Shown here in pieces: positions 30,141 to 55,018 of a DNA stretch of 64,000 nucleotides (positions within the stretch are counted from its first letter, which is position 1; the number at the start of each line of letters is the position of its first letter). The DNA comes from Sediminicoccus sp. KRV36 (GTDB lineage: Bacteria; Pseudomonadota; Alphaproteobacteria; Acetobacterales; Acetobacteraceae): positions 558,001 to 622,000 of the forward strand of contig NZ_CP085081.1 of assembly GCF_023243115.1 (NCBI RefSeq). Direction: 5' to 3'. Both the position numbers and the translations under genes were made by a program. A model generated the notes under the pieces. It was not told the DNA's origin, did not search any database, and saw only the letters and a list, made by a program, of their open reading frames with translations.

Positions 30141-31849
<1,709 letters not shown>

Positions 31850-31860
31850 GGTTCACGCCG

Positions 31861-32409
31861 ATGCATGACACCCTCCCCCGCGCCACGCGCGTCGCCCCCC
31901 CCGGCAGCTTTACCGCCGATGCGGAAGTGATGCTCGATTTCGACGACCGCTTCCGCCGCCGCAAGCGCTATGAGTCCGCCGGCGGCATCCCCTTCGTACT
32001 GGACCTGGCCGAAGCCCAGGTGCTGCGCGAGGGCGATGGCCTGATCCTGGATGATGGCCGCTTCATCCTGGTCCGCGCCGCCGAGGAACCTTTAGTGGAA
32101 ATCCGCGCCGCCAATGCGGCGGAGATGATCCGCCTCGCCTGGCATCTCGGCAACCGGCACCTGCCCGCCGAATTGCAGGAGGCGCGCATCCTGATCCGCG
32201 AGGATCACGTGATCGAGCAGATGCTGCGCGGCCTGGGCGCGCAAATCCAGAAGGTCCGCGCGCCATTCAACCCTGAGGGCGGCGCCTATGGCGAGCACAA
32301 CCGCTCCACGCATCAGCATCATCATGGTCACGTCCATGGTCACGACCATCATCACGATGACGACCATCATCACGATGACGGGCATCATCATCATCACCCC
32401 GGCGACTGA
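31861..32409 (+). CDS. ureE: Urease accessory protein UreE (nickel metallochaperone)
   Basis: 182 residues from the ATG at 31861. The N-terminal domain holds FDDRFRRRKRYESAGG and the DVFL-like segment; the central domain has IRLAWHLGNRHLPAELQ (metal-site His region) and VIEQMLRGLGAQIQKVRAPFNPEGGAYG. The C-terminal roughly 33 residues are extremely His-rich (18 His by my count, interleaved with Asp), a nickel-storage tail as in Klebsiella UreE. It lies 11 bases after ureC. Confidence 0.95.
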   Translation: MHDTLPRATRVAPPGSFTADAEVMLDFDDRFRRRKRYESAGGIPFVLDLAEAQVLREGDGLILDDGRFILVRAAEEPLVEIRAANAAEMIRLAWHLGNRHLPAELQEARILIREDHVIEQMLRGLGAQIQKVRAPFNPEGGAYGEHNRSTHQHHHGHVHGHDHHHDDDHHHDDGHHHHHPGD

Positions 32410-32419
32410 TCCACCGGCC

Positions 32420-33091
32420 ATGCAGGATGCAGACCTCTTCCGGCTGATGGCCTGGACCTCGCCCGCCTATCCGGTGGGCGGCTTCAGCTACAGCCACGGG
32501 ATCGAGATGGCGGTGGAGGAAGGCCGGCTGATGAAGCAGGCCGAATTGGTGGCCTATATCGCCAGCGTGCTCCGGCAGGGCGCTGGCCGGGTGGATGCGG
32601 TGCTGTTTGCGCAGGCCCATTGCGCCTCGGACGAGGCGCGGCTGGACGAGATTGCCGAGCTCGCCGCCGCCTGGCGCGGCACGGCGGAGAGCGCGCTTGA
32701 AGCCGCCCAGCAGGGCGGCAGCTTTGCCAGCGTCACCATCCGATGCTGGCCTGAGGCGCGCTACGCCGCCTTTGCCGCGCGGCATGGCGGGCGGCTTTCC
32801 CATTCCGTGGCCTTCGGCGCGGCGGCCGGCATGGCGGGCATACCCCTGCGCCCGGCGCTCTTTGCCTTCCTGCAAGGCTTCTGCGGCAATCTGGTGAGTG
32901 CCGGCGTGCGCCTGATCCCGCTCGGCCAGACGGATGGCCAGATCGCGACGGCTGCGTTGCTGCCCATCATTTCGGAATGTACCGATGCGGCGCTGACCAC
33001 GTCGCTGGATGAACTCGGCACGGCCTCACCGCTGCTCGACATGCTCTCCATGCGCCACGAAACCCAATACACAAGGCTGTTCCGCTCATGA
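32420..33091 (+). CDS. ureF: Urease accessory protein UreF
   Basis: 223 residues, all-helical GTPase-regulating partner of UreG in the UreDFG complex. From the ATG at 32420 it reads [29 protein letters not shown], where the [12 protein letters not shown] block is diagnostic (quoted in part). It starts 10 bases after ureE and its stop overlaps the ureG ATG (ATGA). The C-terminal [18 protein letters not shown] is typical. Confidence 0.95.
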
Positions 33092-33903
33092 GTGATGTTG
33101 CCAGCCGACCGATTCAGACCTCCGGGCAAGAGCCTTCCAGTCATCGGGGGGATGCTGCCCGACCGATTCAGACCTCCGGGCAAGAGCCCTCCAGTCATCG
33201 GGGGGATGCTGCCCGACCGATTCAGACTTCCGGGCAAGAGCCCTCCAGTCATCGGGCGGGGCACGGCCCCTTCCGCGTCGGTGTCGGCGGGCCCGTCGGC
33301 TCCGGCAAGACGGCGCTGGTCGAGCGCCTGTGCCGGATGCTGCGCCAGACGCATGACATCGCGGCGATCACCAATGACATCTACACCAAGGAAGACGCCG
33401 AATTCCTGACCCGCGCCGGCGCGCTCGATGCGGATCGCATCATGGGGGTGGAGACCGGCGGCTGCCCGCACACGGCGATCCGGGAGGATGCCTCCATCAA
33501 TCTGGCCGCGGTGGAGGATATGTCCGCGCGGTTCCCCGGGCTGGAGCTGCTGTTTATCGAAAGCGGCGGCGACAACCTGGCGGCAACCTTCAGCCCGGAG
33601 CTGGCGGACCTGACGATCTATGTGATTGACGTCTCGGCCGGGGACAAGATTCCCCGCAAGGGCGGGCCTGGCATCACGCGCTCGGACATGCTTGTGATCA
33701 ACAAGATTGACCTGGCCCCGCTGGTCGGCGCCGACCTTTCGGTGATGGACCGCGATGCCGGGCGCATGCGTGGCAAGCGCCCCTTCATCTTCACGAATCT
33801 GAAGGTGGACAAGGGTGTCACCGAGATCGCCGATTTCATCCTGGAGCAGGGTGGCTTGGCAACGCGTGAGTCCCGCAAGCTGCCAGAGCCCCCCGGCAAC
33901 TGA
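33088..33903 (+). CDS. ureG: Urease accessory protein UreG with an in-frame repeat extension
   Basis: 271 residues; GTPase that drives nickel insertion. The catalytic part is standard: P-loop [13 protein letters not shown] (K74, T75), [11 protein letters not shown], the metal-binding Cys-Pro-His in [34 protein letters not shown] and [13 protein letters not shown]. Family members are usually about 205 residues; here about 56 extra N-terminal residues are encoded by 2.8 copies of a 54-bp unit. No in-frame ATG, GTG or TTG lies between the first ATG (overlapping the ureF stop) and the P-loop, so the extension must be translated if the protein is made. It would be a flexible tail rich in Ser, Gln, Pro and Arg. 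Confidence 0.93.
33106..33255 (+). repeat. 54-bp tandem repeat (2.8 copies), each unit a REP-like hairpin, within ureG
   Basis: Unit boundaries are 33106-33159, 33160-33213 and 33214-33255. Copies differ at only a few positions (CCT/CCC, ACC/ACT). Each unit carries nested inverted symmetry: CCGAT...ATCGG outside, GAC...GTC inside, and GGGC-AAGA-GCCC at the tip. Because 54 is a multiple of 3, all copies stay in frame and encode [18 protein letters not shown]. Expansion by slippage or recombination is likely. Confidence 0.9.
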
Positions 33904-33904
33904 A

Positions 33905-33945
33905 GGGGTCTGGGGCCAATGGCCCCAGCCGCCGGAGGCCCTTTT
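33905..33945 (+). repeat. Dispersed palindromic repeat, copy E
   Basis: GGGGTC, hairpin TGGGGCC-AAT-GGCCCCA, then GCCGCCGGAGGCC, followed by CTTTT. It begins one base after the ureG stop and ends at the stop of the convergent MFS gene. It would make a good terminator for the urease operon: a strong stem with a short T-run about 20 bases after it. Nearly identical to copy A. Confidence 0.85.
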
Positions 33946-54571: not shown

Positions 54572-55018
54572 CTAGTAGCGCCCCCGGCCCGGCGCGTCGC
54601 GCGGGTCGGAATCGGTGCGGCCCGTGCCACGATAGCCGCCGCGTCCGCGCCCCGGCCCATCATTCGGATCACGGTCGGTGATGCCGGTCCCGCCGCTGAC
54701 GCCGCGATAGCCGCCACGGCCATTGCCGGGGCCATCGCTGGGGTCCCGATCGGTGATGCCGGTGCCGCGCCGGCCGCCGCGGCCATTGCCCGGGCCGTCG
54801 CTGGGGTCCGCATCGGTGATGCCGGTACCACGCCGGCCGCCGCGGCCATTGCCCGGGCCGTCATTGGGATCCGCATCGGTGATGCCGGTCCCGCGCGCCA
54901 CCGGGGCCGAGTAATAGGCGGGCGCCGGCGCGGCGACGCAACCGGCCAGTGCCGTGCTGGTGCCGGCGATGGCGGCGACACGAAGCACCATGAGGCGCCG
55001 GGAAAGACGTTCTTCCAT
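54572..55018 (-). CDS. Secreted Asp/Gly-repeat lipoprotein (five TDxDPxDGPGxGRG repeats)
   Basis: 148 residues from the ATG at 55018. Signal region SRRLMVLRVAAIAG...ALAGC with a lipobox Cys (about residue 26). The rest is five imperfect ~21-residue repeats of the form GTGITDxDPxDGPGxGRGG, ending GRTDSDPRDAPGRGRY. The spacing of Asp residues with Gly recalls calcium-binding loops, but metal binding is inference. A paralog follows upstream on the same strand. Function unknown. Confidence 0.7.
   Translation of the reverse strand: MEERLSRRLMVLRVAAIAGTSTALAGCVAAPAPAYYSAPVARGTGITDADPNDGPGNGRGGRRGTGITDADPSDGPGNGRGGRRGTGITDRDPSDGPGNGRGGYRGVSGGTGITDRDPNDGPGRGRGGYRGTGRTDSDPRDAPGRGRY

Follow-up and report, generated by a model that had tools for sequence, protein, structure and literature searches.

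What is the repeat that opens ureG in Sediminicoccus sp. KRV36, and how did it come to lie inside a gene? The locus was analysed within a stretch of 64,000 nucleotides (contig NZ_CP085081.1, positions 558,001 to 622,000), hereafter the window. Tandem Repeats Finder reports at 33105-33256 an array of period 54 with 2.8 copies, 97% matches and no indels, whose score ranks second of the 8 tandem-repeat rows in the window. This array, together with the open ORF 33088-33903, bears out the preliminary description of a 54-bp unit repeated 2.8 times in frame at the 5′ end of ureG. Judged on the assembled sequence the repeat is real, and the GGGC-AAGA-GCCC tip and nested symmetry ascribed to it are present in the ureG units. 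The features of the locus, in window coordinates, are these:

32288..33091, + strand: upstream ORF, ending in an ATGA shared with ureG
33088..33091, + strand: ATGA, in which the upstream stop overlaps the ureG start
33088..33903, + strand: ureG, 271 aa, with the GTPase domain from about residue 62
33095..33098, + strand: ATGT, possible left copy of a duplicated ATGG target, suggested by unit-less G015 (ATGAGCAATGGACC)
33105..33256, + strand: tandem array, 54 bp x 2.8, three hairpins and two spacers
33109..33147 (genome 591109-591147), + strand: hairpin core 1, CCGATTCAGACC...AGTCATCGG, 59.4 bits with model R1
33148..33162, + strand: 15-nt array spacer, repeated at 33202-33216
33163..33201, + strand: hairpin core 2, 63.2 bits with model R1
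33217..33255, + strand: hairpin core 3, 63.2 bits with model R1
33263..33266, + strand: ACGG, possible right copy of the ATGG target, suggested by ATGG in G005 and G001

The upstream ORF at 32288..33091 we take to be ureF, from its position in the gene order. The TIGR00101 (UreG) alignment begins at residue 62 of the product of ORF 33088-33903, and near relatives such as G014 and G015 have only 6 residues (MSNGPF) before the GTPase domain against 62 here, which leaves the 56 extra residues that had been noted. Reading of the sequence by eye found no ATG, GTG or TTG in frame between the first ATG and the GTPase domain, in agreement with the earlier statement that no start codon lies there; thus the tail is translated if ureG is. 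The encoded peptide is identical in all three copies, which differ at two bases, both of them third codon positions. In an AlphaFold2 model built on 35 sequences (mean pLDDT 74.2), residues 1-55 score below 50 and the chain is mostly confident thereafter, with a second weak stretch at residues 128-132; the tail is therefore predicted to be disordered. On our preferred reading it is a translated, probably disordered passenger, and such an N-terminal extension of UreG is probably neutral.

A DNA search found related stretches elsewhere in the genome, which rules out a repeat private to ureG and answers the question, raised in the preliminary description, of whether the unit occurs outside this gene. 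A strict pattern gave 22 matches in this genome against 0 for its reversed control. A covariance model built from 16 units, with which 150 of 6588 first-look candidates were scored, gave 101 matches at E <= 1 that group into 54 places, 28 of them single units and 26 arrays. Rescanning the 54 fetched stretches brought the family to 110 units at 54 loci, after removal of 5 reverse double matches. The arrays hold 2-5 detected units and are head-to-tail in 26/26 cases (units being joined if less than 300 bp apart). As a separate observation, in one stretch of the own genome (L010:451-732) a diverged form of the unit is repeated 5.2 times with a period of 54 bp; a normal two-unit array lies about 700 bp away on the opposite strand.

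The family extends through the genus and into its relatives. At E <= 0.01 the model matches 20 of the 21 genus genomes (own included) and 2 of 4 genomes from other genera of the family, and the unit was found in 0/16 genomes of other families. Within the genus, units are numerous in G010, G000 and G003 and sparse in G011 and G016. Over named genomes, a stricter pattern recovered at least 118 stretches; the 80 listed belong to Roseomonas, Falsiroseomonas, Plastoroseomonas, Siccirubricoccus, Paracraurococcus, Roseococcus, Belnapia, Dankookia, Paeniroseomonas or to Acetobacteraceae/Rhodospirillales assemblies. A known Rfam structured RNA is rejected for the 7 of 54 loci scanned, where no match rose above the gathering score; one match below that score lies away from the units (L115 2025-2107). 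Among the titles and abstract openings listed there was no publication on this hairpin family in roseomonads or on ATGA-duplicating hairpins, which leaves its absence from print unproven.

Each unit reads CCGAT-TCA-GACC...loop...GGTC-ATCGG or, in a second sub-type, CCGAT-TCA-CGCC...GGCG-ATCGG, and the outer flanks often pair too. Thermodynamic stability was dropped as evidence for a hairpin, as the two ureG units folded were only slightly better than shuffled sequences (z -0.6 and -1.2). Since single ureG units barely beat shuffles, the real evidence is covariation across copies. Among 104 distinct rows, aligned by fitting to the model and still holding 5 reverse-strand double matches, 91.6% of paired cells are complementary and 253 cells show double changes against 82.8 in shuffles (0/500 as high). 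Sliding the partner by one column lowers pairing to 41.2% or 31.2%, and the highest slid value is 50.6%. One pair of the hairpin is CG in 50 rows and GC in 46. The 16-unit MAFFT alignment (A1) gave 90.0% pairing and 18 double-change cells against 6.5 (0/500 shuffles as high); three of five covariation measures stood at 0/500 shuffles and two were not above shuffles (97 and 228 of 500). An unpaired TCA bulge beside GAT is found in 105/110 units; the near-invariance of these bases, next to pairs that covary freely, suggests recognition of the bulge by a protein. The CcrM methylation site, GANTC, is present in 100/110 units. Copies oriented as the genes show, by eye, GGAGG-like ends before starts.

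Where the units lie was read against coding-potential gene calls of this analysis, by which 91% of the window is coding. Co-directional gaps hold 46 of the 54 loci (ureG and addA counted here), with the unit opposite to the genes in 25 and along them in 21; 5 loci are in convergent gaps, 3 well inside an ORF and 0 in divergent gaps. In the window, divergent gaps number 8 of 58 and take up 51% of the intergenic bases. A stop codon lies within 10 nt of the hairpin at 35/54 loci, and at exactly 6 nt from the core at 18/54 (16 TGA, 2 TAA). Within this genome alone a preference for TGA at that distance was dropped, 16/18 showing no excess over 42 of 53 stops in the window (p 0.40). The periods of 18/26 arrays, taken by first period, are multiples of three, which hints at translation; the hint was not used because open frames and period are not independent.

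In other genera the pattern search rests on the GACC/GGTC sub-type. There, of 78 last units, 33 are followed by TCA at offset 6, and 6 or fewer at any other offset from 0 to 13; the right flanks of the 33 include 32 distinct ones. All 26 stops read at distance 6 are TGA against a baseline of 353/523 (67%), p 6e-5 if the loci are independent, several of which share a genome. Of 67 clusters, 45 are co-directional (with this sub-type opposite to the genes in 42), 15 convergent, 3 divergent, 3 inside genes and 1 undecided. An ATG at a constant 10 nt past the opposite end was tested on 62 single units from other genera and rejected: CAT is at offset 10 in 5 of them, and in 2 it is combined with TCA at offset 6, against 2.1 expected, so that the start-codon side is not fixed.

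Comparison of the same junction in related genomes shows it filled in some and empty in others. At the amidohydrolase locus (L101), 3 of 20 genomes are filled and 17 empty. The empty junction reads ..GCATGACCC.. in G005 and G017, and this genome reads ..GATGAGCGCCA(unit)AGGCGATATGACCC... Fifteen of the empty genomes have ATGA and two (G008, G014) have TGATG, whilst the filled G000 and G007 carry ATGA on both sides and G019 carries TAATG and TGATG. The BLAST pieces at this locus share exactly 4 nt in G015 and in G005, and 5 nt in G012. At the ABC2-permease locus (L107), examined in 21 genomes, 3 are filled, 17 empty and 1 has another insert; the three units of this genome and the one of G014 have ATGA on both sides, and the one of G005 lacks the left ATGA. 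A side observation at this junction, empty in 17/21, is an unrelated insert in G010 (L306), about 150 nt long, rich in hairpins and likewise flanked by two ATGAs.

The MacB-type permease locus (L057) is filled in 7 of 13 genomes (4 minus, 3 plus), empty in 5 and occupied by another insert in 1, the filled state and strands being confirmed by the unit model. Units run opposite to the genes in G000, G015, G008 (two units) and G019 (three), and along them in G006, G002 and G007 (three units). ATGA flanks the units on both sides in 6 of the 7 filled genomes, the exception being G007, whose left flank is GTGA. Different species thus carry units in opposite orientations at one ATGA, which implies independent insertions; insertion therefore recurs. 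At all three junctions most unit-less relatives have a single ATGA overlap and most filled genomes have ATGA on both sides. Two observations speak against so simple a rule. Only 5/54 own loci have an exact ATGA on each flank, which exceeds the 1.05% of random positions and is still a minority, and long hairpins of other, unrelated kinds lie between ATGA pairs at the same junctions (G014; G005, G014, G017; G010), the one in G014 at the MacB-type locus being a different hairpin.

A few units lie within coding genes. dnaE2 has three here and one in G008, in frame; the unit model found none in the other 15 genomes read. The gene that we take to be addA carries a short form of 39-bp period, with three model-found units and a diverged fourth in frame after ATGACC; none was found by the model in the addA of the other 15 genomes read, and no clean target duplication was seen at addA. 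By Pfam, one or two units fall inside HrpB-like and hydantoinase A ORFs, and QueG is preceded by an N-terminal run of units.

The history of the ureG unit was followed through ureG genes located at E <= 1e-40, which were recovered in 16 of the 21 genus genomes. Copy number, which the preliminary description wished to see compared, varies among species: three units here, one each in G005 and G001, a diverged one in G016, a remnant in G011 and none in 11/16. Of 83 ureG starts read (70, those with a match among 97 family genomes, and 13 more of the genus), 81 begin with ATGA or GTGA. A unit-derived tail is present in 9 of the 83, the G011 remnant counted, all inside one 40-row set (SH-aLRT 97), and its state requires 7 changes on a quick DNA tree, a count that is blind to gain versus loss. 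The tail motif is matched by 36/120 UreG homologues among those listed, from Sediminicoccus, Paracraurococcus, Siccirubricoccus, Falsiroseomonas and others. Several other genera thus have a single unit at this place as well, and among the sequences examined it is the triplication alone that sets this genome apart. All tails read share one frame and one orientation.

In G051 and G135 a unit lies precisely at the overlap where ureG starts, bounded on either side by TCATGA, and the congener G182 is empty. The unit of G005 is preceded by ATGT and followed by ATGG, and that of G001 by ATCG and ATGG. Set beside unit-less G015, these flanks suggest, without proving, that the ureG unit went in at ATGG with a duplication of it. 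Against a simple duplication, the putative target copies match at only 3 of 4 bases in ureG and dnaE2.

How, then, does the family compare with known systems? It had been likened to REP-type or palindromic elements, and in that the dispersed, REP-like character holds, whereas the tag and the transposase of REPs are missing in this genome. The survey PMC3733652, in the sections concerned, describes the REP GTAG and CGTC superfamilies as short imperfect high-copy hairpins lying between co-directional or convergent genes near the upstream 3′ end, sometimes inside genes, including dnaE2 and recombination-repair genes. The same sections state that CGTC repeats also occur without a known dedicated transposase, that CGTC dimers are mainly head-to-head with head-to-tail negligible, and that Acetobacteraceae lack CGTC repeats; the word 'duplication' is not used once in the survey. 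Like REPs, the units here are dispersed short imperfect palindromes, mainly extragenic and in high copy (110 units, 54 loci), and lie in co-directional or convergent gaps near stops (51/54, 0 divergent). Unlike REPs, they bear no GTAG or CGTC tag at their alignment ends (within 14 nt of the outer cores, per side at 54 loci, GTAG 2/0, CTAC 0/2, CGTC 1/2, GACG 3/3), have the near-invariant TCA bulge, and form head-to-tail arrays (26/26) and no inverted (BIME, head-to-head) pairs. A search for the Y1 (RAYT/IS200) transposase, PF01797, found none in this genome; of the 21 genus genomes it was found in one, G016, which has 4 unit matches. RAYT-driven GTAG REPs are rejected on this ground for this genome, the GTAG-REP route being unlikely here. 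As tag, inverted pairing and RAYT all fail, we regard the family as REP-like and outside the described superfamilies.

The likeness to Rickettsia palindromic elements, also raised in the preliminary description, holds for in-frame units that are translated if their gene is (ureG, dnaE2, addA) and fails for most copies, which lie between genes and often just behind a stop. Parts of PMC10969869 and PMC3733652 describe those elements as in-frame palindromic units in unrelated genes, with N-terminal insertions; here, compared by description only, in-frame units are a minority, with 3/54 loci well inside an ORF in addition to the translated N-terminal cases of ureG and addA. MITEs are likewise small, non-coding and of inverted symmetry, and they make a short target duplication. 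Possible signs of such a duplication here are the ATGA pairs with empty sites at three loci and the paired TCATGA where ureG starts in G051 and G135, the ATGA pattern being found at only 5/54 own loci. The unit differs from MITEs in being far shorter and one continuous hairpin. CIRs are more than 100 bp long and the units about 45-55 bp, a distinction drawn by description only. Shared with CIRs are an alphaproteobacterial host, the inverted repeat and the GANTC site (100/110 units); the name, Caulobacter CcrM-associated intergenic repeats, appears in a part of PMC10969869.

Taken together, the dispersal, the covarying hairpin with its bulge, the head-to-tail arrays, the placement, the empty sites and the recurrent insertion make it quite probable that the array in ureG arose by tandem triplication of one unit from a mobile REP-like hairpin family, about 45-55 bp long, of the roseomonads (Acetobacteraceae). 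For the integration step by itself, in which the unit inserts at (A)TGA, we see about an even chance. A putative enzyme would recognise the hairpin with its GATTCA bulge and insert it at (A)TGA, or a similar ATGN, with duplication of about 4 bp, so that both overlapping genes would keep their own stop and start. The GGAGG-like end of a unit could act as a new ribosome-binding site, and units would then multiply locally by tandem duplication. As the ureG unit lies about 7 nt inside the gene, only in-frame versions would survive there. More tentatively, the mover may be a transposase of a kind not linked to REPs before, which reads the bulged GATTCA hairpin, perhaps when single-stranded or CcrM-methylated, and integrates sequence-specifically at (A)TGA, the stop/start overlaps of operons being a harmless landing site as the duplication renews both codons.

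The same placement might arise with no target preference, if random insertions with a short duplication were filtered by selection to ATGA overlaps, to positions behind stops or into frame. Selection alone could indeed leave only insertions at stop/start overlaps. The compact genome (91% of the window coding), the unrelated hairpins with the same ATGA pairs and the lack of a TGA excess in this genome all suit such a filter; it explains less well why the large divergent intergenic space is unused, why the spacing to TGA is exactly 6 nt in several genera and why the same ATGA was hit in both orientations. We consider this account of targeting credible, if rather doubtful. Alternatively, the units could be functional RNA hairpins, selected at gene ends for 3′-end protection, attenuation or translational coupling and not mobile, with the stop position reflecting function. 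This would fit the mostly transcribed positions (0/54 divergent in this genome), the strong compensatory change, the fixed distance to the stop and the GGAGG-like ends. We hold it unlikely in view of the patchy presence among congeners at the same junction, both orientations at one junction, several units in coding frames, 3/67 clusters in divergent gaps in other genera, and the choice of TGA over TAA or TAG at 6 nt there, which function at the RNA level would not demand. On the reading of mobile units, position puts most of the hairpins within transcripts, where they may tune coupling or mRNA stability, yet spread is a likelier reason for their number than function.

Two further readings concern ureG alone. 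Its tail could serve UreG in some way, such as metal handling or partner binding, and have been selected for it, with an adaptive triplication, as the recurrence of the motif in homologues (36/120 among those listed, from several named genera) and the common frame and orientation of the tails would suggest. That is improbable given a tail absent from 11/16 ureG genes of the genus, changing 7 times on the tree, showing by eye no third-position bias between a G000 unit and the G005 unit and predicted to be disordered. One unit could also have been wrongly multiplied in assembly, relatives having one unit; two bases distinguish the copies, however, the same genome has 26 arrays in which 2-5 units were detected, and it is assembled as one 4.9-Mb contig, so that an artefact is very improbable.

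About a hundred small hairpins that tend to lie beside stop codons, and are sometimes taken into proteins, point to an undescribed route of spreading that spares operons. If our reading of mobile units is true, Acetobacteraceae hold a new hairpin family, and such a landing site would explain how operons fill without breakage of genes. Two questions become testable, namely what moves RAYT-less REP-like elements and how overlapping genes are separated in evolution. There is also a warning for annotation, in that captured repeat DNA can account for the N-terminal tails of certain annotated proteins (UreG, AddA, QueG). The novelty of the family would stand beside the report, in the relevant section of the REP survey PMC3733652, that the CGTC type does not occur in Acetobacteraceae.

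Lastly, other repeats were seen in the window. A His/Asp-rich repeat at 32317-32390 forms the end of ORF 31798-32409, which by position we presume to be ureE, and a further tandem array of 63 bp x 3.0 with 90% matches lies at 54710-54896. Directly 3′ of ureG, at 33905-33945, is a long GC-rich hairpin, GGGGTCTGGGGCC...GGCCCCAGCCGCCGGAGGCCCTTTT, which by eye resembles the type found between two ATGAs before addA in G005, G014 and G017 and at the MacB junction of G014; hairpins of this type are perhaps a second dispersed family, terminator-like in form.
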